NCBI RefSeq assembly: GCF_025398255.1
Contig: NZ_JAODNW010000002.1
Span: 62,001-126,000, forward strand
Direction: 5' to 3'
Length of the DNA: 64,000 nt
Origin: Chelativorans intermedius
GTDB lineage: Bacteria; Pseudomonadota; Alphaproteobacteria; Rhizobiales; Rhizobiaceae
This document shows positions 8,382-39,013 of this stretch, one piece after another. The notes beneath the pieces are model-generated. The model saw only the letters and a list, made by a program, of their open reading frames with translations, did not search any database and was not told the DNA's origin. The position numbers and the translations under genes were made by a program. How positions within the stretch are numbered: position 1 is the first letter of the stretch; the number at the start of each line of letters is the position of its first letter.

Positions 8382-9647
8382 ATGCACGGAAAATTCTTGA
8401 CGGCGGGCGTGGCCGCTTGCGCTCTGCTGGCGGTGGCCGGGGCGCGCGCGGCCGAGGTGAACTACGCCGCCGGCATCACCGGCAACGCGGTGCAGGTCTT
8501 CGAGGAGCTTGTCGCCCCGTGGGAGGAAGCAACCGGGCATGATGCCAGGCTGGTGCCGATGCCGGCGTCGACCACCGACCAGTTCGGCCAGTATCGCCTG
8601 TGGCTTGCGGCACAGAACAAGGACATCGACCTCTACCAGACCGACGTGATCTGGGCCCCGCAGCTGGCGGAGCACTTCGTCGATCTCAAGGAGGCCGCAG
8701 GCGATCTGGTGGAGAAGCACTTCCCGTCCATCATCGAGTCCCAGACCGTGGATGGAAGGCTGGTGGCGCTGCCGCTCTTCACGGATGCTCCGGCGCTCTA
8801 CTACCGCAAGGACCTTCTTGAAAAGCATGGTGCGGCGGTGCCGACCACCTGGGAGGAGCTCACCGAAACGGCCCGCAAAATCCAGGACGCCGAGCGCGCC
8901 GAAGGCAATGGCGACATCTGGGGCTTCGTGTGGCAGGGCAATGCCTATGAGGGCCTGACCTGCAACGCGCTCGAATGGATCAAGTCCTTCGGCGGCGGCC
9001 AGATCGTGGAGCCCGACGGCACCATCTCCGTCAACAACGAGGCGGCCATTGCGGCCCTCGATCTCGCGGCCAGCTGGCCCGGCACCATCTCGCCGCAGGG
9101 CGTCCTGGCCTACAAGGAGGAGGAAGCCCGGGGTGTCTGGCAGACCGGCAATGCCGTCTTCATGCGCAACTGGCCCTACGCCTACGGGCTTGGAAACGGC
9201 GACGACAGCGCCGTGAAGGGCAAGTTCGACGTCACCGTGCTGCCGAGGGGCGGCGACAGCGATACCTCCGCTGCCACGCTCGGCGGCTGGAACGTCGCCG
9301 TTTCCAGATATTCCGATGAGCAGGAGGCCGCGATCTCGCTTGCCGTCTATCTGGCAAGCCCCGAGGCACAGAAGCGGCGGGCCCTGATCGCCTCCAATCT
9401 TCCGACCATCATCGACCTTTACGACGACCCCGAAATCGCGAAGGAGCAGCCCATCATCCCGCGCTGGAAGGATGTGTTCCTGCAGGCGGTGCCGCGCCCC
9501 TCTGCGCCGACGAAGACGGCCTACAACGAGGTCTCCTCGCTGTTCTGGAGCGCGGTTCACGACACGCTGTCCGGCAACGGTACGGCCGCCGAGAATCTCG
9601 AGATTCTGGAGGCGGATCTGGAAGCGCTGAAGGGCGACGGCTGGTAG
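8382..9647 (+). CDS. thuE: Trehalose/maltose-type ABC substrate-binding protein (ThuE-like)
   Basis: A 421-residue periplasmic binding protein with a Sec signal peptide (about residues 1-23, ending ARA|AEV). The body has the family 1 carbohydrate-binding fold, with motifs such as LYQTDVIWAPQLAEHFVDL and FTDAPALYYRKDLLEKHG. As first gene of a thuEFGKAB-ordered set it should capture trehalose or related alpha-glucosides for the ThuFG permease. The assignment rests on gene order and on the highly recognisable ThuA downstream. The 5' leader carries the LacI operator. Confidence 0.85.
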   Translation: MHGKFLTAGVAACALLAVAGARAAEVNYAAGITGNAVQVFEELVAPWEEATGHDARLVPMPASTTDQFGQYRLWLAAQNKDIDLYQTDVIWAPQLAEHFVDLKEAAGDLVEKHFPSIIESQTVDGRLVALPLFTDAPALYYRKDLLEKHGAAVPTTWEELTETARKIQDAERAEGNGDIWGFVWQGNAYEGLTCNALEWIKSFGGGQIVEPDGTISVNNEAAIAALDLAASWPGTISPQGVLAYKEEEARGVWQTGNAVFMRNWPYAYGLGNGDDSAVKGKFDVTVLPRGGDSDTSAATLGGWNVAVSRYSDEQEAAISLAVYLASPEAQKRRALIASNLPTIIDLYDDPEIAKEQPIIPRWKDVFLQAVPRPSAPTKTAYNEVSSLFWSAVHDTLSGNGTAAENLEILEADLEALKGDGW

Positions 9648-9662
9648 TCCCGATCCTGGTCA

Positions 9663-9691
9663 GGCCCGGGCGCCCGGCAGGCGCCCCGGCC
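9663..9691 (+). promoter_or_regulatory. Hairpin between binding-protein and permease genes
   Basis: GGCCCGGGCGCC and GGCGCCCCGGCC form a 12-base-pair stem with one mismatch and a 5-base loop (CGGCA). There is no T-run, so this is more likely an mRNA-stabilising or partial-termination structure that raises binding-protein output relative to the permease. The same arrangement recurs at 20.08 and 61.17 kb. Confidence 0.65.
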
Positions 9692-9744
9692 CGTCCGCCG
9701 CCGCTTGAAGGCCGCCCCGGCCACAGTCTTCGGGAGGAAACGCG

Positions 9745-10715
9745 ATGGCCACCGTCGCCGCACCCGCGCAGCCGATATCCCCCAAGGGCCGCTCCGAGCT
9801 CAAGGCACAGCGTGTCCGGGCCGCCATGTGGTTCCTGCTGCCGATGGTCACGGCCCTGTTCCTGGTTGCTGCCTGGCCGCTTCTGCGGACCATCTATTTC
9901 AGCTTTACCGATACCACGCTCAACGATCTGGGCGGCGGCGAATGGATCGGGCTGCAGAACTATCTGAGCTGGCGCACTCTCTCCTCCGGGCGGACGATCT
10001 TCCGCGGCGTCCTGGCCGATCCGAACTGGTGGAACGCGGTGTGGAATACGGTCTACTTCGCGGTCGTCTCCGTCAGTCTCGAAACGGTCTTCGGCGTCAT
10101 CGTTGCGCTCGTGCTGAATGCCGAGTTCAGGGGGCGCGGGCTTGTCCGCGCCGCCGTTCTCATCCCCTGGGCGATCCCCACCATCGTCTCGGCGAAAATG
10201 TGGGGCTGGATGCTGAACGACCAGTTCGGCATCATCAACGACCTGCTCCTGAAGCTGGGGCTGATCTCCGAAAAGATCGCCTGGACGGCCAGCCCGGACA
10301 CCGCGATGCTGGCCATCATCATCGTGGATGTCTGGAAGACCACGCCCTTCGTGGCCCTCCTGGTGCTTGCCGCGCTTCAGATGGTGCCGCGCGAAATCTA
10401 CGAAGCGGCACGGCTCGACGGGGTCAATCCCGTCAAGGTCTTCTTCCGGGTGACGCTGCCGCTCATCCGGCCGGCGCTCCTGGTCGCCGTCATCTTCCGC
10501 ACGCTCGACGCATTGAGAATGTTCGACCTGGTCTACGTGCTCACGCCCAACTCTTCGGCCACCAAGACCATGTCGGTCATCGCTCGGGAGAATCTCATCG
10601 ATTTCAATAAGTTCGGATACGGTTCGGCGCAGTCTACCCTGCTGTTCCTGCTGATTGCCGGCTTCGTTCTTCTCTACATCCGGCTCGGCCGGCTGAACCT
10701 TGGCGGGAGGGGCCT

Positions 10716-10719
<4 letters not shown>
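9745..10719 (+). CDS. thuF: ABC sugar permease (ThuF-like)
   Basis: A 324-residue inner-membrane permease with six predicted membrane helices. The cytoplasmic coupling (EAA) loop is EIYEAARLDGVNPVKVFFRVTLPLI, residues about 212-236, which docks onto the ATPase. The start at 9745 follows GGGAGG by a normal distance. It pairs with ThuG to form the MalF/MalG-type channel. It overlaps the next gene by 4 bases (ATGA). Confidence 0.85.
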
Positions 10720-11540
<821 letters not shown>

Positions 11541-26090: not shown

Positions 26091-26297
26091 TGGAAGACGG
26101 AAACTGCGGCGTCTCCCGTCGCCTGCGCGCCGGGCATGCAGCCGGCTGCTTCGCCATGCGAGCATGGGCGCTTGCCGCTTCACGCGTACGGATCTTGCGG
26201 GCGAATCAACAACGGATTCAAGATTCGTTGCGTATTGAAACGAATATTAACCGGTCTGTATTTGAAATTGCTGCTCCAGCAGCCTGGCAGACCGACC

Positions 26298-28841
26298 ATG
26301 GACGACAGTCAACTCTTCAAAACACTGACCCAGACAGTCCCTGGCATCGTTTGGGTGTCGGATTCCGAAGGGAAGGTCATCTTCAACAACGCGCATTGGA
26401 GCGAGTTTACGGGCCTGCCCCAGGAGCAGGGACTGGGGCACGGCTGGCTGGACGCCATACATCCGGCGGATGCTTCGATCTTTCGCGCACAGTTGCCTTT
26501 CAAGGCCCAGGTCCAGGAAACCAAACAGGTGGAACTGCGCGTGCGCCGTCATGACGGCGTCTATCACCGTCACCTCATAAGCGTTCGCCATGTGGGAGAC
26601 GGAATGTGGGTGGGCTGCGCGATCGATGCGCAGGAATGGATAACGGCCGAAATTCGCGATCTGACGCAGACGAAAATCCTCGACATGCTCTCCATGGGTG
26701 CCGAACTCAACGAGGTGCTGTCCGAGCTCTGCCGCTCTGCCGAAAAGCATATACCCGGCTCCATATGCAGCATCCTTCTGGTGGACGAAGACGGCGAATA
26801 TTTTTCGTCGGGCATCGGGCCTCAATTGCCCGATGAATTGCTGCGCAACGTGCCATCCATAAAGATCGCGCCGGGCATGGGCTCCTGCGGCACGGCCGCC
26901 TATGAGAAGCGGGATGTCATCAGCAAGGATATCGCGACCGATCCCCTGTGGGAGGGTTGGCGCGACCTGATCCTTCCCTTCGGCTTCCGGGCCTGCTGGT
27001 CAAAGCCGCTGTTTGGTTCTCATGGCAAGGTCATCGCGTCCTTCGGCTTCTACTTCAGGGAGCCACGCGCGCCGAGCCCCGTCGAACATGCGGAGATGGA
27101 TCGCCTGCGCCGTCTGGCTTCCCTCGCCATCGAGCGGGCCCGCATGCTGGAGGCGCTGCGCGAAAGCGAGGAGCACTATCGCCACACGGTGGAGCAGAAC
27201 CCGCAGATCGCCTGGACGGCAAGCCCCCAGGGGGATGTGCTGAGCGCCTCCACCAGATGGGAGGAGTTCACGGGCCTCAGCCTGGAACAGTCCCTCGGCA
27301 ATGGCTGGCTCCGCGCGCTTCATCCCGATGATGTCGCTCCGACCATCGAAAGCTGGGAGGAGGCGCTGTCGACGGGCAGGGCCCTCGACATCAACTACCG
27401 CCTTCGCATGAAGGATGGGCACTATCGATGGACGCGTGCGCGCGCCTCGGCACGTCGTGACAGGAAGGGCAAGATCCTGCGCTGGTACGGGACGGTGGAG
27501 GACATTCACGAGCGTCATCTTGCCGAGGTCCGTCTCAAGAGGCAGGCCTACCAGGACGATCTGACCGGCCTGCCAAACCGCCGGCGCTTTGTCGACGAGC
27601 TGCGCCGGCGTCTCAACGGCGCCTCCGGGCCGATCGGCCTCATGGTCCTCGACATGGACGACTTCAAGCTGGTCAACGACCGGTTCGGGCATCTTACGGG
27701 CGATGCCGTGCTCCGCCTGTTCGGCCGTCACCTGCAGAAGCTCGTCGAGCCCTTCGAGTTTGTCGCCCGCCTTGGCGGCGACGAGTTCGCGATCATCGGC
27801 AAGCACTGCTCCGACGAAGCCTGCCTGCTTGCACGGGCGAAACATCTTGAAGAGCAGCTCGACGCTCGTCTGAGGACCAACAGGAAGTCCAGATTGTGCA
27901 GGCCCAGCATCGGCTGCACCCTCGGGCACCCCAACGAGCATCCCGACGAGGTCTTCAAGCGGGCAGACCTGGCGCTCTACGCCGCAAAGTCGTCAGGCAA
28001 GGGCAGCGTCAAGCTCTTCGATCCCGCAATCCGAAACGCCGCCGAGAGGCGCTCGGCAGAACTGGAGCTGGCGAGGCTCGCGCTGAAGGAAAACTGGATC
28101 GAAGCCTACTATCAGCCTGTGATCTCGCTCGGAACGGGCAGGGCGTGCGGCTTCGAGGCGCTGCTGCGCATCCGCCACCCCGAACGGGGTGTTCTTGCGC
28201 CCTTTGCCATCAAATCCGCCCTGGACGACCCCAGGCTCGCCGACGCCATCGCCATCAGGATGGCGCATACCGTGGTCGACAACATCTCGGCGTGGTCTGA
28301 CGCGGGTGTCGATTTCGGCGCGGTGTCCATCAACCTTGCAACGGAAAATCTGATCAATCGGGAGTTTGTCACCACGCTGCTCGATCTTCTGGACAGCAGG
28401 GGACTGCGACACGGATCGGTGAAGCTGGAGATCACGGAACGCGTGCTCATGGATGAGCTGGGAGACAACATAAGGGCGAATCTGGGCTGGCTGCGGGCCC
28501 AGGGCATCGGCATCTCCCTCGATGATTTCGGGACCGGCTATGCTTCGCTCATTCACCTGAAAACCCTGCAGGTGGACGAGATCAAGATCGACAGATCGTT
28601 CGTCTCGGGATTGGGCACCCCGGCCAATGGCGGCGAGATCGTGCGCGCGATGATCGGACTGGCAAAGACCCTCGGGCTGAAGACCGTGGCCGAGGGCATC
28701 GAAACCCAAGGCGAGGCGCTTCTGCTTTCTGCCTGGGGGTGCGAGAACGGCCAGGGCTATCTGTTCAGCCGCCCCATGCCTTTCGATCAGGTGTGCGACT
28801 ATCTCTCCGGCTCATTGATGCCCAAGAGGCTTGCGACGTGA
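26298..28841 (+). CDS. PAS-GAF-PAS-GGDEF-EAL cyclic-di-GMP protein
   Basis: An 847-residue cytoplasmic protein with no membrane segment. Domains: PAS (about 8-112), GAF (about 130-285), PAS/PAC (about 292-408), GGDEF (about 420-580) and EAL (about 590-835). GGDEF is intact (493-497), so it can in principle make cyclic di-GMP. The product-inhibition RxxD site is absent (EPFE at that position). The EAL motif is intact (620-622) with DDFGTGYAS, so it may also hydrolyse it. Which activity dominates is unknown. Sensor domains suggest redox, oxygen or small-ligand input. The upstream gap carries repeat copy 3. Confidence 0.9.
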   Translation: MDDSQLFKTLTQTVPGIVWVSDSEGKVIFNNAHWSEFTGLPQEQGLGHGWLDAIHPADASIFRAQLPFKAQVQETKQVELRVRRHDGVYHRHLISVRHVGDGMWVGCAIDAQEWITAEIRDLTQTKILDMLSMGAELNEVLSELCRSAEKHIPGSICSILLVDEDGEYFSSGIGPQLPDELLRNVPSIKIAPGMGSCGTAAYEKRDVISKDIATDPLWEGWRDLILPFGFRACWSKPLFGSHGKVIASFGFYFREPRAPSPVEHAEMDRLRRLASLAIERARMLEALRESEEHYRHTVEQNPQIAWTASPQGDVLSASTRWEEFTGLSLEQSLGNGWLRALHPDDVAPTIESWEEALSTGRALDINYRLRMKDGHYRWTRARASARRDRKGKILRWYGTVEDIHERHLAEVRLKRQAYQDDLTGLPNRRRFVDELRRRLNGASGPIGLMVLDMDDFKLVNDRFGHLTGDAVLRLFGRHLQKLVEPFEFVARLGGDEFAIIGKHCSDEACLLARAKHLEEQLDARLRTNRKSRLCRPSIGCTLGHPNEHPDEVFKRADLALYAAKSSGKGSVKLFDPAIRNAAERRSAELELARLALKENWIEAYYQPVISLGTGRACGFEALLRIRHPERGVLAPFAIKSALDDPRLADAIAIRMAHTVVDNISAWSDAGVDFGAVSINLATENLINREFVTTLLDLLDSRGLRHGSVKLEITERVLMDELGDNIRANLGWLRAQGIGISLDDFGTGYASLIHLKTLQVDEIKIDRSFVSGLGTPANGGEIVRAMIGLAKTLGLKTVAEGIETQGEALLLSAWGCENGQGYLFSRPMPFDQVCDYLSGSLMPKRLAT

Positions 28842-28916: not shown

Positions 28917-30386
28917 TCATGCCGCCGTGCGGGGGTGAAGCCAGGAAGGCAGGTAGCCATAGGGATCGCGGGGAACCGCCATGGCGGTCTTTCCAAGACG
29001 CTGCGCAAAACGCCCGTCGCGCAGCTCGTCGAACAGGTCGGTGGCGCCGCCGATCGGTTTGCCCCTCACAAAGATCTGCGGGATCGTCGGTGCGCCGGTG
29101 ATCGCATGCAGGGCGCGCCGCACGCCGGCGGCCCATTCCGGGTCGCGATAGTCCGGCCCATCCAGATCGACAGCGCTAAATCCGATGTCGAGATCAGCGA
29201 ACAGCCGTCTTACGGACCAGCAGAACTCACACCACTCAAGTGCGAACATGACGATCTCGTTGCCGGGATCGCCGACAATCGCTCTGACATGATCGAGCGC
29301 TTCGGCCGATGCTTCGGGGACGTCCACCGCGACGCGCGGCCCCGGCGATGCGGCTTGATCGAAGCGGCAGGAGGGGGTGGAGCGCGACAGCGCCGCTTCT
29401 TCCTGCGTCATCGTTTCTGTGATCTCGGAAAACAGCGGCGTCGAGAGATAGCGCTCGCCCGTGTCGGGCACCATGGCGAGAATGCGTGCGCCGGGCTGCG
29501 CCTCGCGCGCCACCGCCAGGGCGACGGCGACGGTGGCCCCCGCGCTGATTCCGCACAGGATGCCCTCCGCCCGGGCGAGGTCCCGCGCCGTGTCGAGCGC
29601 TGCCCGCCCGCTTACCGGATGCAAGGCGTCGATGAGCCCCTCATCCCGCGCCTTCGCCGTCAGCGGCGAGACGAAATCGGGCGACCAGCCCTGCATCAGA
29701 TGCGGCCGGAAGGCCGGATGGCTGTCTTCGCTCGGCTGGGCAAGGCCGGAGCCCAGGAGGGCGGAGTTGTCAGGCTCGCAGGCAACGATCCTGGTGCGGG
29801 GGCTCTCGCGGCGCAGAACCCGGCCGACGCCCAGCAGCGTGCCGCCGCTGCCAAAGCCGCTGACCCAATGGGTTAGCCCATCTGGTCCGAAGGCGGCAAG
29901 AATCTCGCGTGCCGTGGTGCGGGAATGGGCGTCGGGATTGGCCTCGGACTCGAACTGACGGGCCAGGAACCAGCCATGGCGTTCGGCCAGCTCGCGGGCC
30001 TTCGCCACCATGCCCGAGCCCTTCGCCGAGGCGGGTGTCAGGACGACGCGCGCTCCGAAATGCCGCATCAGCCGGCGCCGCTCGACGCTGAAGTTTTCGG
30101 CCATCACGGCAACGAAGGGATAGCCCTTCGCAGCGCATACCATGGCCATGCTGATGCCCGTATTGCCGCTCGTTGCCTCGACAACGGTCTGTCCGGGCCG
30201 CAGCCGGCCCTCTCGCTCGGCCGCCTCGATGATGCCGAGTGCCAGCCGGTCCTTGACCGAACCCCCGGGGTTGGAGGATTCCAGCATCACGAAGACATCC
30301 GCCTGCCGAGGCGCCAGACGCTGCAGACGCACGATGGGCGTCCTGCCGATCGTGTCCAGGATGCTTGAGAATATCGGTGAAGTCAT
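28917..30386 (-). CDS. Cysteine synthase fused to a glutaredoxin domain
   Basis: A 489-residue fusion. Residues 1-325 are O-acetylserine sulfhydrylase (CysK): PLP lysine K45 in NPGGSVKDR, the substrate loop TSGNTG, the phosphate-binding GFGSGGT and the GISAGA serine. Residues about 370-460 are glutaredoxin-like: WCEFC (C386, C389), TIPQIFV cis-proline and GGATDLFD. The start at 30386 sits 9 bases from GGAG; upstream in-frame ATG codons would add up to 17 residues. It makes cysteine from O-acetylserine and sulfide, and the glutaredoxin may provide reductant or redox control. GTTTC motifs lie upstream. The gene converges on the GGDEF-EAL gene. Confidence 0.88.
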   Translation of the reverse strand: MTSPIFSSILDTIGRTPIVRLQRLAPRQADVFVMLESSNPGGSVKDRLALGIIEAAEREGRLRPGQTVVEATSGNTGISMAMVCAAKGYPFVAVMAENFSVERRRLMRHFGARVVLTPASAKGSGMVAKARELAERHGWFLARQFESEANPDAHSRTTAREILAAFGPDGLTHWVSGFGSGGTLLGVGRVLRRESPRTRIVACEPDNSALLGSGLAQPSEDSHPAFRPHLMQGWSPDFVSPLTAKARDEGLIDALHPVSGRAALDTARDLARAEGILCGISAGATVAVALAVAREAQPGARILAMVPDTGERYLSTPLFSEITETMTQEEAALSRSTPSCRFDQAASPGPRVAVDVPEASAEALDHVRAIVGDPGNEIVMFALEWCEFCWSVRRLFADLDIGFSAVDLDGPDYRDPEWAAGVRRALHAITGAPTIPQIFVRGKPIGGATDLFDELRDGRFAQRLGKTAMAVPRDPYGYLPSWLHPRTAA

Positions 30387-30452
30387 CGCCATTGTCTCCC
30401 GAGGTCGATCGCGCGTGCGCGCCGTTGTCTCGGTCATTTCTGCCGATGCGTT

Positions 30453-30500
30453 GTTTCAGCCCGATGGCGATGCGGGGGCTGTGCGTGTTTCAATCGTTTC
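30453..30500 (+). promoter_or_regulatory. GTTTC motif set, locus 1
   Basis: GTTTCAG at 30453 and the tandem GTTTC-AATC-GTTTC at 30487-30500 are 34 bases apart from start to start. They lie upstream of the cysK-glutaredoxin gene and overlap the response-regulator stop. The same layout recurs at 34.64 and 37.6 kb. This is a candidate binding site only. Confidence 0.4.
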
Positions 30501-31239
30501 CGTGCGGCAAGTGCCCGCGGCCCGGCGGCGGATCGTAAATGTAGCCGAGACCGCGCACCGTGCGGATCACCTCCGGCTTCTTGGGGTTGTGCTCGATCTT
30601 CCTGCGGATCCGCGAAATGCGGATGTCGATCGAGCGGTCGAAGGGATCCCACGAACGGTCGTGCGCTCCTTCGAGGATCTGATCGCGATTGAGCACGCGC
30701 CCGCGGTTCAGGGCAAAGAGCTTCAGAAGGCTGAATTCCATCGCCGTCAGCGGAATCTCGCGCCCATCCTCGACGCTGGTCAGCGTCGCCGCTTCCAGGT
30801 CGAGGGTCGCCCGCCCGAACGGATACCGCGTCCGGGGGATCGCCGGCAGCTCCTCCATCGGGGCTGGCCGCGCGGAGCGGCGCATCACCGCCTTGATCCG
30901 CGCCACCAGTTCCCGAAGGTCCACCGGCTTGGCAAGATAGTCGTCCGCCCCCATCTCCAGCCCGATGATGCGATCCACCACGTCGCCCATCGCCGTCAGC
31001 ATGATGACGGCCGGCCGCTCCTGCCTGTCGAGACTCCTCAGAACGCTCAGGCCATCCTCGCCGGGCATGGTGATGTCGAGGAGGATGACATCCGGCACGG
31101 CCTCGGCCATCGCCTGGCGCAGTTCCGCGGCATTTGCAGCACATCGCACGAGAAAACCCCGCCTTTCGAGATACTCGGCCAGCATCTCGCGCAGCGCGGC
31201 CTCGTCGTCACAGATCACTATGCTTTCAGGCGCGCTCAT
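30490..31239 (-). CDS. OmpR/PhoB-type response regulator of the globin operon
   Basis: A 249-residue response regulator. The receiver domain (1-118) has acidic pair D11/D12, phospho-acceptor D55 (LLDITMPG) and the lysine in LAKPVDL. The C-terminal winged helix (about 140-240) has TAMEFSLLKLFALNRGRVLNRDQIL and GLGYIYDP. The start at 31239 overlaps the kinase gene by 14 bases and follows an AGGCGGA sequence. It is the last gene of the operon and presumably the DNA-binding output of the kinase. The shared GTTTC motifs nearby are candidate targets. Confidence 0.88.
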   Translation of the reverse strand: MSAPESIVICDDEAALREMLAEYLERRGFLVRCAANAAELRQAMAEAVPDVILLDITMPGEDGLSVLRSLDRQERPAVIMLTAMGDVVDRIIGLEMGADDYLAKPVDLRELVARIKAVMRRSARPAPMEELPAIPRTRYPFGRATLDLEAATLTSVEDGREIPLTAMEFSLLKLFALNRGRVLNRDQILEGAHDRSWDPFDRSIDIRISRIRRKIEHNPKKPEVIRTVRGLGYIYDPPPGRGHLPHGND

Positions 31240-33148
31240 TCGCCTTCCGCCTTTCCTGTTGACCCTCCAGGACCGCACGGACGAGCTTGCGCAGATCGTC
31301 CGGTATCACGGGTTTTTCGAGCCAGGGACGCCCGCACTCGGCCAGGAAGTTGCGGGTCTCGCGCGCCATCGTGTCGCCGGTGACGAACGCCATTCGCGAT
31401 ACCGCATCGGGGAAGTCGCGCTGCAGGACCTCGTAAAGACCCCGCCCATCGAGCCCGGGCATCTTGAGGTCGCTCAGGATGACGTCGTAGCGCTGGTGGC
31501 CGAGCATGGTCAGGGCGGTCTCGCCCGAGGTCACGCTGTCCACCAGATGCGCATCGCGCCGCAGCAGATCGCGGATCAGGTCGGCCACCTCCGGCTCGTC
31601 GTCGATCACCAGAATGCGCAGCTCCTGCGATTGCTCGGGCAGGGGATCGACGACCTCCGCACCGCTCCGTCTCGTTTCGTGGACCGGCAGCGAAATCCGG
31701 AAGCAGGCGCCCCTGCCATCCCCGGAGCAATCGAGAAGGCGGATGGTTCCGCCATGCGCCGAGATGACGCGATGCGCAAAGGCCAGTCCGATCCCCGTTC
31801 CCTGACCGGGTGCCTTCGTGGTGAACAGCGGGTCGAAGATCCGCGACCTGATCTCGGGCGGTATCCCCGGACCATCGTCGAGAATGTCGATCAGGACGGT
31901 CCCTTGAGCCCCATCGCTGCGCACGTCGATGCGGATCCGGCTGCCCACGCCCGACATGCGCATGGCCTGATCGGCGTTTGCCAGGAGATTGATGAAAACC
32001 TGCGACATCTGGTGCGAATCGCAAAGAACCTCCGGCAGATCCGGGGCGATGGAGCACTCCACCTCGGCATGGAACTCGGAGGCGCCGTTCACCATTGCCT
32101 CGACGGCCATCTCGATGGCTTCCGCAAGATTGGTGGGTTCAAGCTCGGCCGGCTGCTGGCGCGCCATGGCAAGGAAGGCCTTGACGATGCGCGAACAGCG
32201 CTCCGCAGCATCGCTGATCTTTCCGATCCGGGCGAGGATGGCGGGGTCGTCGATTTCATCGCGAAGCATCAGCGCATGGCCCACCACGACGGAGAGCGGA
32301 TTGTTGAGCTCGTGTGCAACGCCGGCCAGCAGCTCGCCCAAGGCGGAAAGCTTCTCTGCCTGGAAGATCTGTTCGCGCTGATCCGCAAGCGCCTGACGAA
32401 GCGCAAGCTCGCGGCTGCGGTCGGTTACGGTCGAGACGATGACAGCCTCGCCCCTGTGCTCGATCTGCCGCGCCGACACCAGGGCCGGGAATTCCGATCC
32501 ATCCGAGCGCCGCGCCGTCACCTGCATGTCGTCGACCCGCCCGCTGGGCAGAAGCGCGGTGAGGAAATCCGCGCGTTCCTCGGGCCGCGCGAACCAGCGG
32601 TAGGATTTCCTCTCAAGGCCAAGCAGCTCGATGGCGGCAGGCGAGCGATAGATCACCTCGCCGCCCTCCAGCCGAGTCATCATCACGGCCGCCGGGCAGG
32701 CGTCGAGCACCCGGCGCAGCATCTGCTCGACCTCCCGTTCCGCCTCGGCAAGTCTCCTGCGCTCGGTAATGTCGCGCTCCGTCAGCACAAAGCCGCCCGT
32801 CGCGGTGGGATGCATCGCCACTTCGAACAACGTGCCGTTCGGCCCCTCAACCTCGACAGGCTCGGTCGTGGACAGGCCGGCTGCGATCTGCCGTTCGAGC
32901 GCGTTCATCCGTGCCCGCGCGACCTCGGAGATCGCCCCGCGGCCATGCGCCTCGCGCAGCAGGACATCCCAACGGGCCCCGGGGCGGATGAGGTCGGCAA
33001 TCGGCGGATTGAGCGCGACGAAATGGCGATTGTAACGCAGCAGACAGCCGCTTTCGTCAAACACGGCCAATCCCTCATGGAGGGCTTCCACAACCTCCAC
33101 GAACAGCGCCTCACCGGCACTGTCTGCAATGCGATCGCCGGTGTTCAC
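31226..33148 (-). CDS. Soluble hybrid sensor histidine kinase
   Basis: A 640-residue cytoplasmic hybrid kinase with no membrane helix. Layout: PAS (about 15-125), PAS (about 145-245), HisKA with phospho-accepting H279 in GVAHELNNPL, ATPase domain (N391; DDGPGIP; GTGIGLA) and receiver with D560 (LSDLKMPGLDG). The start is GTG at 33148, with GTGA overlapping the cyclase-like gene's stop. The two PAS domains and lack of membrane anchor suggest sensing of an internal cue such as redox state, gas or a metabolite. Partner: the downstream response regulator. Confidence 0.88.
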   Translation of the reverse strand: MNTGDRIADSAGEALFVEVVEALHEGLAVFDESGCLLRYNRHFVALNPPIADLIRPGARWDVLLREAHGRGAISEVARARMNALERQIAAGLSTTEPVEVEGPNGTLFEVAMHPTATGGFVLTERDITERRRLAEAEREVEQMLRRVLDACPAAVMMTRLEGGEVIYRSPAAIELLGLERKSYRWFARPEERADFLTALLPSGRVDDMQVTARRSDGSEFPALVSARQIEHRGEAVIVSTVTDRSRELALRQALADQREQIFQAEKLSALGELLAGVAHELNNPLSVVVGHALMLRDEIDDPAILARIGKISDAAERCSRIVKAFLAMARQQPAELEPTNLAEAIEMAVEAMVNGASEFHAEVECSIAPDLPEVLCDSHQMSQVFINLLANADQAMRMSGVGSRIRIDVRSDGAQGTVLIDILDDGPGIPPEIRSRIFDPLFTTKAPGQGTGIGLAFAHRVISAHGGTIRLLDCSGDGRGACFRISLPVHETRRSGAEVVDPLPEQSQELRILVIDDEPEVADLIRDLLRRDAHLVDSVTSGETALTMLGHQRYDVILSDLKMPGLDGRGLYEVLQRDFPDAVSRMAFVTGDTMARETRNFLAECGRPWLEKPVIPDDLRKLVRAVLEGQQERRKANERA

Positions 33149-34200
33149 AGGTCTGCCTCGGCTGCAACCGCCTCGGGTTCCGATACCTCGAAGACGGCCA
33201 TCGACCGGCCACCGCCGACATCCATCACCCCGATGCGGCGCAGGCCCTGCCGTTCGCCGAAGGCTTCGGCAAACGGCTCATTGGCGACGATGGTCTCAGG
33301 GCGGGCAAAGCTCATCAGGCGCTCGGCTTCATCGACGGCCGGGCCAAAGACATCGTAGATGTATTTGCGCACCCCCACCACCGAGCCGACGACCATCCCG
33401 GTGCTGAGCGCCACCCTGCATTTCCAGCGGATCGGATGCGTTTCGTTGCGGCGTCTGAGATAACGCAGAAACCTTACCGCGGCGCTTGCGGCTGCGGAGG
33501 CGTGATTGGCGCTCGTGTCGCCCATGCCGGACACCGCAATATAGGCGTTGCCCAGGGTCTTGATCCGCTCGCATCCGAATTGCTCGCCGATCCGGTCGAA
33601 GGCGCTGTAAATGTCGTTCAGCTCGCTGACGACAACGCTTGCGTCATTCTCCAGGACGGTGCGGGAAAAATCGGAGAAGTCGAGGCTGAGAACGGTAACC
33701 GGATCATACCGCCGGGGCGACACGATGCCGAGGCTCTTGAACTCGTCATAGGCGCTGCGGGGCATGATGTTGAGAAGCAGTTGCTCGACCCGCTCCTTCT
33801 CCCGCCGGATCTCCCGGGTGTTGCGTTCAACCATCAGGGAATAGGAGTCGATCATCGCCTCCAGTTCCTTGATCCTCGTGATGTTCTGACAAACGGCGAC
33901 GACGATCTGCCGATCGGTCTCCGTGGCAAGGCTGAAGGTGACGGCCACCGTCATGGAACGCCGGCGCACGCGAAAGGTGGCCTCGATGTCGTGCCGCTTT
34001 CCCGACTGAAGATCCTTCAGCATCGCTGCCGGATCGAGGTCGGGAAACGCGTCGGCCAGCGGCCTGCCGCCCTCGGAGGCTCCGAACCATTCCGCAAAGG
34101 TGTCGTTCTCGAAGAAGGTCCGCCGGCTCTCGATGTCGATGAGCACGACGCCAACACCAATGGCCCGAAGCAGCTGCGCGTTGATGGCTTCGATCGTCAT
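33145..34200 (-). CDS. PAS-linked class III nucleotidyl cyclase-like protein, catalytic residues altered
   Basis: A 351-residue protein: PAS (about 8-112), a coiled-coil signalling helix (about 115-150, REKERVEQLLLNIMP) and a class III cyclase domain (about 160-340). The first metal Asp is present (D174, LSLDFSDFS). The residue 44 later, normally the second metal Asp, is N218 (KTLGNAY). The purine-site Asp is present (D283). The catalytic Asn position is D290, while Arg294 four residues on is kept. These changes suggest an impaired enzyme or a regulatory pseudo-cyclase, though altered chemistry is possible. ATGA overlap with the globin gene and GTGA overlap with the kinase place it centrally in the operon. 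Confidence 0.85.
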   Translation of the reverse strand: MTIEAINAQLLRAIGVGVVLIDIESRRTFFENDTFAEWFGASEGGRPLADAFPDLDPAAMLKDLQSGKRHDIEATFRVRRRSMTVAVTFSLATETDRQIVVAVCQNITRIKELEAMIDSYSLMVERNTREIRREKERVEQLLLNIMPRSAYDEFKSLGIVSPRRYDPVTVLSLDFSDFSRTVLENDASVVVSELNDIYSAFDRIGEQFGCERIKTLGNAYIAVSGMGDTSANHASAAASAAVRFLRYLRRRNETHPIRWKCRVALSTGMVVGSVVGVRKYIYDVFGPAVDEAERLMSFARPETIVANEPFAEAFGERQGLRRIGVMDVGGGRSMAVFEVSEPEAVAAEADL

Positions 34201-34562
34201 GGCGCCATTCCAACCATCAGGCCGCGGCGCGCTTCGAACTGTGCGATCACCTCGTTCAGATCGGGCTCGGCGAAGTTGTGGTCCCTCAGCGTTTCGGCCA
34301 GCAGCGCCGTCATGCGATCATAGTGTTCGCCACGGATATCGAGATGGCGGTGAAGGCGGCTGATCTGTTCGTCCGTGTAATGTGCCGGGCCGCCGAGCAG
34401 CATGGCGAGGAACTTGGTCTGGTGATCCACGATGCGCGGAAGATCGACGTCCTCGAAGAAGGGACCCAGAAGATCGTCGTCGAGCAGCCGATTGTAGAAA
34501 TCGAGGACGATCCGGCTCACCACCGCGAACCCGCCATATTGCTCGAACTTCGATTGCGTCAT
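34197..34562 (-). CDS. Single-domain truncated (2/2) globin
   Basis: A 121-residue group 1-like truncated haemoglobin. The pattern FYNRLLDDDLLGPFF gives the B10 tyrosine Y23 and the CD1 phenylalanine, and LHRHLDI gives the proximal haem ligand H71. The FLAMLLGGP motif matches the family's GG hinge. The size is normal for a stand-alone globin. It is first in a four-gene operon (globin, cyclase-like, hybrid kinase, response regulator) with overlapping stops and starts. It could sense or deliver oxygen, nitric oxide or another haem ligand to the downstream signalling proteins. That link is inferred from gene order alone. Confidence 0.85.
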   Translation of the reverse strand: MTQSKFEQYGGFAVVSRIVLDFYNRLLDDDLLGPFFEDVDLPRIVDHQTKFLAMLLGGPAHYTDEQISRLHRHLDIRGEHYDRMTALLAETLRDHNFAEPDLNEVIAQFEARRGLMVGMAP

Positions 34563-34643: not shown

Positions 34644-34690
34644 GTTTCAGTCGCGCGTCGCCTGACGACCGGATTTGTTTCGATTGTTTC
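34644..34690 (+). promoter_or_regulatory. GTTTC motif set, locus 2
   Basis: GTTTCAG at 34644 and the tandem GTTTC-GATT-GTTTC at 34677-34690 are 33 bases apart. They lie in the 238-base divergent region between the globin operon (-) and the DUF1127 gene (+). The tandem core is identical over 15 bases to the one at 37.6 kb read on the other strand. Confidence 0.45.
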
Positions 34691-34800
34691 AATATACGAG
34701 GCTTCGCGGAAAGAACGAAACGCTTTTCCGCTTCCTGCGAAATCGGCCCGAAAACCGGGGTTGCGAAGCTCTCCGCATCGCAAATGAGGAGAGAATGCCA

Positions 34801-34977
34801 ATGATGAACGCAACGATGGCCTGGTTCGGAAGGGCCGCTTTGAAAACCCGGGACACCATGAGGCGGCGCAGGACGCGGATCGTGCTCGAAGACCTGAGCG
34901 ACGAAATCCTGCGCGACATCGGGATCGAGCCCGCAAACGTCCGACGGTGGAAGGGGATGCCCCTCATCCGCCCCTGA
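34801..34977 (+). CDS. DUF1127 small protein
   Basis: A 58-residue basic protein ending in the DUF1127 (YjiS-like) motif LEDLSDEILRDIGIEPANVRRW. AGGAG lies 9 bases before the ATG at 34801; an in-frame ATG at 34795 is too close to that site. DUF1127 proteins in alphaproteobacteria are small RNA-binding-like proteins, some linked to phosphate, carbon and stress responses. It is divergent from the globin operon and followed by a strong terminator. Confidence 0.8.
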   Translation: MMNATMAWFGRAALKTRDTMRRRRTRIVLEDLSDEILRDIGIEPANVRRWKGMPLIRP

Positions 34978-35115: not shown

Positions 35116-36357
35116 TCACGCCGCCCGGCGCGCGGTCTGCGCGAGATGGGCCTTGAGGATTGGCAGGAGAGCGGCGGCATCGCGGCCCACACCGTCGATG
35201 AAGTTCGATGCCCTGTGCCGCTGGTAGCGCAGACCCAGCGTGTAGACGCCGGGACAGGCGGTGACACCGTCGATCTGCGCAATCTCGCCATCCGGGGCGA
35301 AAACCGGCAGCTTCAACCAGGGATAGGAACGGCGGTAGCCTGTCGCCCAGACGACCGTGCCGATTCCCAGCATGCCGAGATCGAGCCGGCACGGTCCCGG
35401 CCCGAAGGCCGGGGCGGCGGATTTCGCGGCGGCAGGCGCGTCGATCCCCGTCCTGGCGATGAAACCGTCGATGTGGTCAAGCATGGTGGCGCGTCGCCGC
35501 TCGGATGCGTCGATCTCTCGCGGCAGGTCCGGGTCGAGAGCGATGACGGCGCCCTCGGCGCCCAGAACACGGCCCACGATGCGCACACCCCTGGTGTGCA
35601 GGACACCGAGATCAAGGTCGCTGCCGCCGGGATCTCCAATGAGCTGCATGGATGGCTGGCTTGCAAGCCGCGACAGGTTGCCGTCTTCAGGGCGGCGTTC
35701 GGCGAGAAACCCGCTCCGGTCCAGCCAGTACATCACGTCCCTGCCACGATAGCGCCGGGGCACCCGGACATGGCGGCCGACGGCAATCGTGACGGCATGT
35801 CCCGCGCGGTGGATCTCGGCCGCCAGCTGAACCCCTGTCGCGGAAGCGCCGACCACGAGCACGCCGCCCCCTGGAAGACGGTCGGGCCCTCGATAGATGT
35901 TGGGGGTGAGCTGCAGAATGTCACGCGGCAGGCGAGCCGCAGCCTCCGGGACATGCGGATCCTGAAACGCACCCGTGGCAATGACAACCGCGCGCGCAAA
36001 CCAGGTCCCGGCGGTGCTGCGAACGAGGTAACCGGCACCTTCGCTCTCCACCGACGTCACGGAGGCTCCTTCGCGGACGTTCAGACCGCAGTCCGCGGCA
36101 TAGCGCTCGAGCAGCCCCACGAACTCGCAGGCGCGCATGAACCCGTCGGGATCGGCCCCCGCGTAGCGATGGCCGGGAAGGCGGGTCATCCAGTTGGGTG
36201 TGAGAAGTCTGAGCGTCGGCCAGCGTTCGCTCCGCCAGCGCTCGCCCAGGCGGCCGCGTTCGAGAACGACATGGGGAATGCCTTCGGCATTGAGCAGCCA
36301 GCTCATGGCCAGTCCGGCCTGGCCGGCTCCGATGATGACAGTGTCTGTCCGATGCAT
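35116..36357 (-). CDS. FAD/NAD(P)-dependent flavin monooxygenase-like oxidoreductase
   Basis: A 413-residue two-dinucleotide-binding-domain flavoprotein. The FAD motif is IIGAGQAGLAMSW at the N-terminus, the NADPH motif is VVGASATGVQLA near residue 165, and VVWATGYRRSY lies near 350. This layout resembles flavin-containing monooxygenases that transfer oxygen to nitrogen, sulfur or carbon centres. The substrate is unknown. The start at 36357 places the FAD motif 8 residues in; ATG 36369 is an alternative. It lies downstream of osmC on the same strand. Confidence 0.85.
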   Translation of the reverse strand: MHRTDTVIIGAGQAGLAMSWLLNAEGIPHVVLERGRLGERWRSERWPTLRLLTPNWMTRLPGHRYAGADPDGFMRACEFVGLLERYAADCGLNVREGASVTSVESEGAGYLVRSTAGTWFARAVVIATGAFQDPHVPEAAARLPRDILQLTPNIYRGPDRLPGGGVLVVGASATGVQLAAEIHRAGHAVTIAVGRHVRVPRRYRGRDVMYWLDRSGFLAERRPEDGNLSRLASQPSMQLIGDPGGSDLDLGVLHTRGVRIVGRVLGAEGAVIALDPDLPREIDASERRRATMLDHIDGFIARTGIDAPAAAKSAAPAFGPGPCRLDLGMLGIGTVVWATGYRRSYPWLKLPVFAPDGEIAQIDGVTACPGVYTLGLRYQRHRASNFIDGVGRDAAALLPILKAHLAQTARRAA

Positions 36358-36453
36358 CACAGGTCCCATCCGCTGGGCTATGCAGGTGCAGGCAAGGTGG
36401 GTCCGCGTGGCGGCAAGGCGATGCAGGTCCGCCGCCGCCACGCGTTCGCGGCT

Positions 36454-36686: not shown

Positions 36687-37268
36687 TCACTGGGCAACCG
36701 CTTCCACCGAGACGGGGACGCCGTTGCGCAGCACGTCGAAGACGGCCGAGCGCGCCACCGACTGGCGGACGATCTTTTCGAGCACCTCGGCCGGCGCATC
36801 GCCGGCGATGCGGAACCTCGCGCGGATGCCGGAGAAGCCGTTGCGCACGGTGTCATCCATCCCGAAGATTCCCTGCAGGTCGATGTCGCCTTCGATCGTC
36901 GTCTCGACCGAATGAAGCTTCACCTGACGGATCGAGGCGATGTTGCCGATGCCGGCCGTAATGCAGGCGGAAAGCGCGGCAAGCAGCAGCTCCACAGGCG
37001 TGGCGCCATTGTCGGCTCCGCAAAGAACGGCCGGATGATCGCCGTGGATGACGTGGGCGCGGGGGCGTTCATGGTCGCCGCCGGCACCGCGGTAGCCGGC
37101 CATGGTGGCCTGGCTGTGGGTGCCCGACAGCCACTTGCCGTCGGCGCGGAAGGTGAACTTCGCAAGATCGCGGTTGCCCTCGACGACGCCAAGCGTCGCC
37201 GTCAGGTTGGGCACGTCAACGCCGTTCATGGCGACTTTCGTGGGGGTCTCGATGGTCTGGGTGGACAT
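36687..37268 (-). CDS. OsmC/Ohr-family protein
   Basis: A 193-residue OsmC-like protein. The central helix carries LCGADNGATPVELLLAALSAC, with the cysteine pair typical of the family placed before and within the helix. OsmC/Ohr proteins reduce organic hydroperoxides with two cysteines; this is a longer variant whose substrate is uncertain. The start at 37268 follows AAAGGATC, and the upstream in-frame codons look non-coding. It lies in the stress-like block with the globin operon and monooxygenase. GTTTC motifs lie upstream (37362-37656). Confidence 0.85.
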   Translation of the reverse strand: MSTQTIETPTKVAMNGVDVPNLTATLGVVEGNRDLAKFTFRADGKWLSGTHSQATMAGYRGAGGDHERPRAHVIHGDHPAVLCGADNGATPVELLLAALSACITAGIGNIASIRQVKLHSVETTIEGDIDLQGIFGMDDTVRNGFSGIRARFRIAGDAPAEVLEKIVRQSVARSAVFDVLRNGVPVSVEAVAQ

Positions 37269-37361
37269 GGGTCCGATCCTTTCTGTTGCGGTGCTGGTGT
37301 TGGTCTCGTCCTGACCGGAACGAGCCTGTCCCGGTCGACCCGGCGGATTTGCCAGTCCCAC

Positions 37362-37656
37362 GTTTCAGCCTGACACCGCACGGCCGCTCATCGCGTTTCA
37401 AATGTACGCCTGGAGTCTCGGCTGTGTTTCAGCCGGCAAGACCTTTGCGGAAGCCGCAAGCCGTTCGGATCTTCCATTCTTGGCCCTGAAAGGCGGGATC
37501 ATCGGCCGGCGGCGCGCCCTGAAGAGCCTGCCGCCATCTCCCGGCGCTCCCCTCCCCATTTTGCGGCAGGCAGGATGCCGATGCGCCCGGCGGCGAAACA
37601 ATCGAAACATCTGCGAGGCGTCCGCGACAATCGCGTGAAACCTGCCTGCCTGAAAC
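37362..37656 (-). promoter_or_regulatory. GTTTC motif cluster between osmC and the MFS gene
   Basis: A 464-base divergent gap with no supported gene. Plus-strand GTTTCA occurs at 37362, 37395 (33 bases on) and 37436. On the minus strand there is a tandem GTTTC-GATT-GTTTC at 37608-37595, preceded 33 bases upstream by GTTTCAC (37641) and further upstream by GTTTCAG (37656). The single-plus-tandem geometry matches the loci at 30.45 and 34.64 kb. Confidence 0.45.
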
Positions 37657-37732
37657 TGATCCCGTCACAACACGAGACCAGAGGTCCGTCTTGAAGGCAT
37701 TCGGCACCGGCCTGCGGCGACGGAGAACAGAC

Positions 37733-39013
37733 ATGCATCAGCCCCGGATGAAGGAAGGAAGACCAGCCCATGCGTGGGTGACCGTGGCTTCGGCAGCGGC
37801 CATGCTGGCCGTGGCCATGGGACAGTTGGTCAATGGTCTTTCGGCGTTTCTCGAACCACTCGAGAGGGAGTTCGGCTGGGCGCGCGGCGAAATCGCGCTG
37901 ATCAACAGCGCCGGGCTGCTGGGGCTTGCGCTTGGCGGCATCCTGATGGGAGCCGTTGCCGACAGGGTCAGCATTCGGATCGTCTGCCTTGTGGGCGCGA
38001 GCGCCACGGGCATGAGCGCCATCGCCGCGGCCTGGGCGGACAGTCTGGCCGAATTCTACATGATCTTCTTTGTTGCCGGAGTTCTGGGCGGCGGATCGCT
38101 TTTTGCACCATTGTTCGGGCTCGTCGGACAATGGTTTCGAACGGGCGCCGGCCTTGCCATCGGCATCGTTTCGGCCGGTCAGGCGGTCGGGCAGGGCAGC
38201 ATCCCGATGGTCAACACGCTTCTCATTTCCCGGCTCGGCTGGCGCGATGCGTTCGCCGTGTCCGGGATTGCCACCCTGGTGATCCTCGGCCTCCTTGCGC
38301 TTCTCGTCAAAGCGCCCGAAACGTCGCCCGGCGCATCCCCTGCCGGCCCGGCCGGCGAGGCGCCCCGCCCGATCGGCTGGCATCTGGCAATGCCGATGAT
38401 CGGAATTGCCGTCTTCCTGTGCTGCACGGTGATGGCGGTTCCCCTCATGCACCTGATGCCCCTTATCCAGACCTGCGGAATTCCGGTCACCGAGGCTGGA
38501 GGAGCGCTCATGGCGATGATGGCCTCCGCCATCGCGGGCCGTGTGGCCTTCGGCAGGTTTGCCGACCGCATAGGCGCTCTGCCGGCCTATTTCGTCGCCT
38601 CTGCCTGGCAGACGGGGCTCGTCTTCGGCTTCACCCAGCTCGGCGATATCGGGCAGTTTTACGTCTTCGCCCTGCTTTACGGCTTCGGATATGGCGGCGT
38701 GATGACCTGCGTGCTCACGACCATCCGCGTGCTTGCGCCGGCAGATCGCAGGTCGGGCGCAACCGGCATGATCATGGCCTTCGCCTGGGCAGGGCATGGG
38801 GTGGGCGGATTTCTCGGCGGCTTCTTCTTCGATCTGTCTGGCGGCTACGAACTCGGATTTCTCGCCGCCGTGCTCGCCGGGCTGGTCAATCTGTCGATCG
38901 TCGGGACACTGTGGTGGATTTTTGCCGCCGTACGCGCCGACGCGCCGAAAAGCGGCAATCCGAGGCGAGCCGTCTGGCGAAGCTGGGGTCGGCTGGGCGC
39001 CGTGGACGGCTGA
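37733..39013 (+). CDS. MFS transporter
   Basis: A 426-residue major facilitator with about twelve hydrophobic helices. The N-terminal half has GGILMGAVADRVSIR, the family's loop 2-3 motif (GxxxDRxxxR). The size and start at 37733, with GGAG 7 bases upstream, are normal. The sequence resembles monocarboxylate or oxalate-type carriers, but the substrate is not identifiable. It is divergent from osmC and the upstream gap is rich in GTTTC motifs. Confidence 0.85.
   Translation: MHQPRMKEGRPAHAWVTVASAAAMLAVAMGQLVNGLSAFLEPLEREFGWARGEIALINSAGLLGLALGGILMGAVADRVSIRIVCLVGASATGMSAIAAAWADSLAEFYMIFFVAGVLGGGSLFAPLFGLVGQWFRTGAGLAIGIVSAGQAVGQGSIPMVNTLLISRLGWRDAFAVSGIATLVILGLLALLVKAPETSPGASPAGPAGEAPRPIGWHLAMPMIGIAVFLCCTVMAVPLMHLMPLIQTCGIPVTEAGGALMAMMASAIAGRVAFGRFADRIGALPAYFVASAWQTGLVFGFTQLGDIGQFYVFALLYGFGYGGVMTCVLTTIRVLAPADRRSGATGMIMAFAWAGHGVGGFLGGFFFDLSGGYELGFLAAVLAGLVNLSIVGTLWWIFAAVRADAPKSGNPRRAVWRSWGRLGAVDG

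Follow-up and report, generated by a model that had tools for sequence, protein, structure and literature searches.

Relation to described heme-based and two-component systems

The closest described relatives of the locus studied here are soluble guanylate cyclase, in which H-NOX, PAS, coiled-coil, and cyclase parts follow one another; globin-coupled sensors and globin-cyclase fusions, in which a globin is coupled with a signaling output; H-NOX and NosP, stand-alone heme proteins that are encoded beside histidine kinases; and OmpR/PhoB-type two-component systems, which combine receiver-winged helix regulators with tandem direct repeats, the period of the repeat being 10 to 11 bp for PhoB/OmpR.

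We analyzed a 64,000-nucleotide stretch of the Chelativorans intermedius genome (the window), which contains a predicted operon for a truncated globin, a cyclase-like protein, a hybrid histidine kinase, and an OmpR-type response regulator. The cyclase-like protein has the PAS-helix-cyclase order and fold in common with soluble guanylate cyclase over residues 2 to 342, gives a weak HNOBA match, and would likewise have a heme protein as its partner, but the window system differs in its separate truncated globin, its adenylate-type Lys/Asp, the altered residues of this copy, and the kinase downstream. Since no H-NOX was found in the chain by Pfam up to an E value of 1, and the chain starts with a PAS-like part, the protein is sGC-like in its layout but not a member of the soluble guanylate cyclases. 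Unlike in the globin-coupled sensors and, as we understand them, the fusions, the 2/2 truncated globin of the window is encoded separately. In comparison with the H-NOX and NosP pairs, the heme protein here would be a truncated globin, and a cyclase-like protein stands between it and the kinase. With the OmpR/PhoB-type systems the cluster shares a receiver-winged helix regulator and tandem direct repeats, whereas its box has a 9-bp period, its hybrid kinase is soluble by prediction, and the cluster has no evident HPt gene. From the predicted proteins, we filed the cluster under heme-based two-component signaling.

No description of the system was found in the open-licence papers searched, nor in the available portions of PMC12904073, PMC4319818, and PMC4720485. 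Distant alphaproteobacteria also have the cluster, again with a shared DNA box and genes for sulfur and redox enzymes, so that we are probably dealing with a gas-sensing control system not described before. As the best explanation we put forward a soluble heme-based signaling system with a small local regulon, which, with the mechanistic steps proposed below included, we hold tentatively and with slightly less than even confidence. If this holds, a stand-alone truncated globin would gain a signaling role, a cyclase would be seen to turn from an enzyme into a relay, and a compact model (one regulator and three predicted sites in a single genome) would be at hand for tracing heme gas sensing from ligand to promoter, while canonical-cyclase relatives, some with a kinase and some lacking it, would permit a comparison of stages.

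Organization of the predicted operon and its neighborhood

The four genes are located on the minus strand and encode a group-1 truncated globin (34197..34562; 121 amino acids; PF01152, E value of 5.1e-13), a PAS-helix-cyclase protein with altered catalytic residues (33145..34200; 351 amino acids; PF00211, 6e-28), a hybrid histidine kinase (31226..33148; 640 amino acids; PAS_7, PAS_9, HisKA, HATPase_c, and Response_reg), and an OmpR-type response regulator (30490..31239; 249 amino acids; Response_reg and Trans_reg_C). The open reading frames and coordinates bear out the overlaps of 4, 4, and 14 bases claimed in the initial annotation of this DNA: globin and cyclase share an ATGA (34197-34200, 4 nt), cyclase and kinase a GTGA (33145-33148, 4 nt), and kinase and regulator 14 nt (31226-31239). 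Pfam detected no membrane domain in the four proteins. Pfam and a residue check together identified the elements of a two-component system, with the phospho-acceptor His279, the ATPase domain, and the receiver Asp560 present in the kinase, and Asp55 in the regulator.

The conserved cluster also takes in genes that were absent from the initial annotation, namely, a cysteine synthase-like protein fused to a glutaredoxin domain (CysK-Grx; 28917..30437, minus strand; PF00291 and PF00462) downstream, and an FAD oxidoreductase (35116..36441, minus strand) and an OsmC-family protein (36687..37361, minus strand; PF02566) as conserved neighbors upstream. CysK-Grx starts 52 nt past the end of the regulator gene and scores 341 bits against TIGR01139, just under the cutoff of 350.95. 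The FAD oxidoreductase is a relative of the MSMEG_0569 family (330 bits against TIGR04046, below the cutoff of 498). The OsmC gene may have its true start near 37268, and its product matched one PDB protein, which has no assigned function. Divergent from it, an MFS transporter gene (37691..39013, plus strand; PF07690) starts just downstream of the third of the boxes described below; its place in the regulon is uncertain. Two further genes on the plus strand were observed in this region: one for a small DUF1127 protein (34675-34977) between the globin and FAD genes, which overlies the globin box, and a 901-amino-acid open reading frame (26136-28841), PAS/GAF-GGDEF-EAL-like by eye, that is convergent with CysK-Grx. 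Base composition as a sign of recent transfer was set aside, since the values for the cluster (65.6% G+C) and the window (64.8%) are uninformative.

A group-1 globin and an altered cyclase domain

The best PDB match of the globin is 3aq5, a group 1 truncated hemoglobin (6.3e-16); HbN (1idr) matches at 2.6e-12 and group-2 proteins far more weakly, so that its relationship to solved group-1 proteins places it among the group-1 truncated hemoglobins. It carries the proximal His and distal Tyr/Gln of that group in the form of Tyr23, Gln48, and His71, which we take to be Tyr B10, Gln E11, and the proximal His, respectively, the first two presumably as in the NO/O2-reactive HbN. All three residues are invariant in the 93 globin sequences aligned, some of which are duplicates.

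The N-terminal part of the cyclase-like protein gives PAS matches below the Pfam cutoff. Its AlphaFold model (mean pLDDT of 81.9, pTM of 0.58) consists of a PAS-like domain, a long helix, and a cyclase domain, and it superimposes on chain A of human soluble guanylate cyclase (8hbe) over residues 2 to 342 (Z of 22.9, rmsd of 6.1, 318 residues aligned), with isolated cyclase cores slightly above this full-length match (up to Z of 25.8). The protein has the class III fold and lacks the residue set of an active class III adenylate cyclase: it reads DKNDDR versus the canonical DKDDNR (Asp174, Lys214, Asp218, Asp283, Asn290, and Arg294), with Asp174, Lys214, Asp283, and Arg294 kept, Asp218 changed to Asn, and Asn290 changed to Asp. 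We assume that these positions have the roles known from class III cyclases, where an active enzyme needs two metal-binding Asp residues (Asp218 being the second metal site), a Lys/Asp pair for specificity, and the Asn and Arg. The initial annotation was right to call the window's protein altered, but the alteration is mainly a trait of its clade, given that 87 of the 101 proteins left after deduplication (a set that includes the window's; L076, L152, and L156 removed as duplicates) have the canonical residues. The residue comparison left out L105 and L164, with in-frame stops in the matched stretch, and the decayed L170.

Altered residues occur in all eight loci found in which a kinase follows the cyclase. 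Besides the window, these read DKDDTR in L031, L032, L040, and L065, NRDDTE in L033, DRDDNA in L061, and DKDDIQ on the plasmid pLA3 of Novosphingobium pentaromativorans. Seven other altered cyclases have no kinase downstream; L056 and L058 are divergent from kinase/regulator genes, and L149, L150, L155, L166, and L168 have neither a kinase nor a regulator nearby. The seven cyclase-then-kinase proteins other than that of pLA3 form a fully supported clade, and all eight, pLA3 included, likewise group as one clade in a FastTree tree. By this phylogeny, the eight altered cyclases are one clade and not independent events.

Relative to 12 canonical proteins, seven of the altered cyclase-then-kinase proteins have an identity of 59 to 69% in the cyclase domain (versus 68 to 86% among the canonical), 49 to 59% in the PAS part (versus 53 to 64%), and 76 to 92% in the helix (versus 82 to 93%). 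The cyclase domain has thus changed most of the three parts, with overlapping ranges for altered and canonical proteins, which we read as catalysis lost or weakened and the scaffold kept, once in evolution. We propose that the globin would be the heme subunit, with the PAS/helix part of the cyclase-like protein as its target, in the way that H-NOX works inside soluble guanylate cyclase, and that in the window's clade the cyclase domain, with lost or lowered catalysis, would relay to the adjacent kinase by contact and not through cAMP.

Distribution and gene order of globin-cyclase pairs

Comparison of gene neighborhoods showed that the gene for the putative truncated globin adjoins that for the PAS-helix-cyclase protein, and that some members of the family also have a hybrid kinase and an OmpR-type regulator. 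The globin gene lies directly upstream of the cyclase gene in 80/80 loci (the best 80 of 253 relatives) and in 24 of 26 further loci, the two exceptions being L155, whose contig starts with the cyclase and has a partial globin match on the downstream side, and the decayed pair of L170. Judged by this gene order, the core of the cluster is the globin-cyclase pair. Apart from the window, the cyclase was found in 13 of 297 genomes of the order at an E value of 1e-30 or better (15 genomes matched; G274, with L030, was not counted, as it matched in the cyclase domain only), within the family in G034, and within the class in 16 further genomes out of 385 (17/385 with the window's own), 14 of which were viewed in context (G671 and G688 were left out). 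The distribution is patchy, since the 15 other genomes of the genus all lack it.

The window's order of globin, cyclase, kinase, and regulator recurs in L031, L032, L040, and L065 and on pLA3, where it is flanked as OsmC, FAD oxidoreductase, second FAD oxidoreductase, globin, cyclase, kinase, regulator, and CysK-Grx, with proteins 51 to 72% identical to those of the window. On pLA3, an arsenic resistance operon (arsR, arsI, arsC, and arsB; L228 5758-8151, minus strand) is divergent from the cluster, which we take as chance. The initial annotation regarded the four genes as a unit that would fall if their order were confined to this strain. The order does persist in other genera and in another order, so the four genes are a conserved unit, that objection fails, and the idea that the arrangement is special to this strain was rejected. 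The tightest unit is, however, the globin with the cyclase: no kinase or regulator is found near 57 of the 101 deduplicated pairs, many of them from Ruegeria (8 of the 57 have less than 5 kb of sequence on one side, and G524 and G616 carry a regulator elsewhere in the genome), so that a kinase-regulator always tied to the pair was also rejected.

Where kinase and regulator genes are present (regulator identity of >50%, kinase identity of 34% or more), they either run divergently to an operon of enzyme, globin, and cyclase genes or lie co-linear with the pair, as they do in the window. In L033 and L061 a kinase without a receiver domain follows the cyclase, and L169 has the order kinase-regulator-globin-cyclase. 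Independent overlapping genes assembled by chance, with no functional link, would fit the patchy occurrence and the 0/15 within the genus; we nevertheless regard this as highly improbable, because the order is kept across orders, which makes the four-gene arrangement more than chance, and because the box described below is tied to regulator-bearing loci and, within the genome, to the cluster.

A predicted direct-repeat box accompanies kinase and regulator genes

From words common to 31 divergent intergenic regions (those under 900 nt among 39), we obtained the box TGAAACAATTGAAACA, which consists of two GAAAC cores 9 bp apart. In the 4.18-Mb genome of the window, which contributed none of these regions, the direct-repeat box GAAACRAYYGAAAC occurs three times, always within the cluster. 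The exact form GAAACRATYGAAAC is found genome-wide only at these three sites, with four more sites at one mismatch versus one for the reversed control. In the window itself, the 16-base pattern with up to 3 mismatches gives 3 matches versus 0.35 expected, a number reached by 1 of 100 shuffles. The first site (34676..34691, minus strand) is 113 nt upstream of the globin start, the second (30486..30501, minus strand) spans the stop codon of the regulator gene and is followed, 48 nt on, by the start of the CysK-Grx open reading frame, and the third (37594..37609, plus strand) lies between the OsmC gene and the divergent MFS gene. Of the three boxes of pLA3, one precedes OsmC, one the FAD gene, and one spans the regulator stop at the same place as in the window.

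Among the other pair loci with kinase/regulator genes, 36 of 43 have the box, among them 30/35 divergent loci, a partly circular figure because the motif was derived from divergent loci, 4/5 co-linear loci other than the window, and 1/2 kinase-only loci. It was found in none of the 57 pair loci without a kinase or regulator nearby (906 kb), and in 4 of 8 loci with a regulator and no cyclase (L141, L143, L144, and L145). This comparison shows that the predicted box accompanies the kinase/regulator genes. With the wider pattern, 11 of the 15 same-genus genomes have no site and 4 have one each; sites without a known regulator ortholog, which count against our best explanation, occur in these 4 genomes, in G260 (four sites), and in G134 (two sites).

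The genome-wide survey covered 54 chosen genomes, listing 64 sites, and 20 distal stretches were picked and inspected. Eleven of these had no evident link (L210 to L214, L216, L218 to L221, and L227). The links that were seen place the box in front of or beside a kinase gene (L209), kinase/regulator genes with OsmC (L223 and L224), or enzyme genes, the latter encoding a second CysK-Grx (L226), a homocysteine S-methyltransferase (L208), FAD and methyltransferase proteins (L217), and UbiE-like methyltransferases (L222 and L225). In G524 and G616, a protein of 310 to 358 amino acids is encoded at or near the box, opposite the kinase-regulator genes (L223 3114-4190, minus strand; L224 7366-8298, plus strand); the L223 copy has no Pfam match. 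A 304-amino-acid protein beside the globin of L171 (6714-7628), also without a Pfam match, is similar to it by eye only.

We infer that the regulator binds the box and would control CysK-Grx, the globin operon, the OsmC and FAD genes, and perhaps the MFS gene. Alternatively, the pair may be the regulator's target rather than its input, the kinase sensing through its own PAS domains and the pair serving only as a gas-tuned source of cAMP, here perhaps a remnant. Consistent with this, the pair of the divergent loci stands last in an operon with the box in its promoter region, most pairs have no kinase nearby (57/101), and 8 of 9 other genomes with the regulator lack the pair. The one clade that joins the kinase to the cyclase, in which catalytic residues are lost while PAS and helix stay similar, fits an input better, and we therefore consider the target-only reading rather unlikely.

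Sulfur and redox genes and the candidate signal

Genes near the boxes or in box-bearing operons encode CysK-Grx, OsmC, FAD oxidoreductases, an alpha/beta hydrolase, a UbiE-like methyltransferase, MetX, and MetY. In the deduplicated set, OsmC is near 13/43 kinase/regulator loci versus 1/57 loci without these genes, the FAD gene near 13/43 versus 2/57, the alpha/beta hydrolase near 35/43 versus 0/57, the methyltransferase MT12 near 28/43 versus 1/57, and CysK-Grx, MetX, MetY, or SBP56, at the same identity limits, near 12/43 versus 0/57, the reference proteins being mostly from kinase/regulator loci, on which the identity limits were set. At weaker limits, MetX-like genes are near 30/57 and CysK-like genes near 6/57 loci without kinase/regulator, showing that the sulfur genes are not wholly specific; the MetX-like genes near Ruegeria pairs all belong to a single shared synteny, and we left them out of the supporting evidence. 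Most kinase/regulator loci carry the hydrolase and methyltransferase genes, which we counted against our best explanation. The hydrolase had no PDB match at 1e-12. Together, the enzyme neighbors and the predicted box point to a sulfur/redox response, which corrects the gas- or redox-responsive circuit of the initial annotation.

A methanethiol oxidase above the family cutoff adjoins the pair in L162 (G389) and L165 (G426), while L147 (G162; 8895-11396) has a broken copy near the pair, one piece of which scores 433 bits; none of these three loci has a kinase or regulator nearby. Oxidases above the cutoff were found only in pair loci of this kind; the SBP56 of L035 is below it. Methanethiol oxidase and the cyclase (8 and 17 of the 385 genomes, respectively) co-occur in 4 genomes (Fisher P of 0.00017, a value that ignores kinship), in one of which, G359, the pair is decayed. 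According to PMC12904073, mddA and mddH are induced by H2S or methanethiol, and MddH is UbiE-like. We set aside MT12 as a candidate MddH, since its PDB relatives are mixed.

The nearby genes for cysteine synthase, homoserine acyltransferase, sulfhydrylase, and methanethiol oxidase hint that the signal or the substrate may be a reduced sulfur gas. With the co-occurrence of methanethiol oxidase and the induction of mddA and mddH, this makes a reduced sulfur gas (H2S or methanethiol), assimilated or detoxified by the enzymes, our first guess and the least certain step of the proposed mechanism. The signal could instead be cyanide, NO, or O2/redox, with the cysteine synthase and MetY-type enzymes serving cyanide or thiol-redox chemistry. 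Heme binds all these ligands, the putative Tyr B10 and Gln E11 of the globin are those of NO/O2-reactive HbN, cyanide is a possible substrate of cysteine synthases, and the MSMEG_0569 family, to which the FAD protein is distantly related, occurs in nitrilase clusters. The methanethiol oxidase beside the pair and the MetX and MetY genes in kinase/regulator loci speak against this alternative, which we consider somewhat less likely than not. No relevant report on methanethiol or cyanide and globins was found in the open-licence papers. The sulfur-gas reading can be extended to a split sGC-like heme sensor, with the globin in trans, that was ancestrally a gas-gated adenylate cyclase and in one clade became a catalytically dead adaptor, passing the signal of a volatile sulfur compound (H2S or methanethiol) on to a soluble histidine kinase with a dedicated GAAACnnnnGAAAC-box regulon; in this full form we consider it unlikely. 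The decayed pair of G359 (L170, 7755-8931) contains in-frame stops, and the same genome has two methanethiol oxidase copies above the cutoff.
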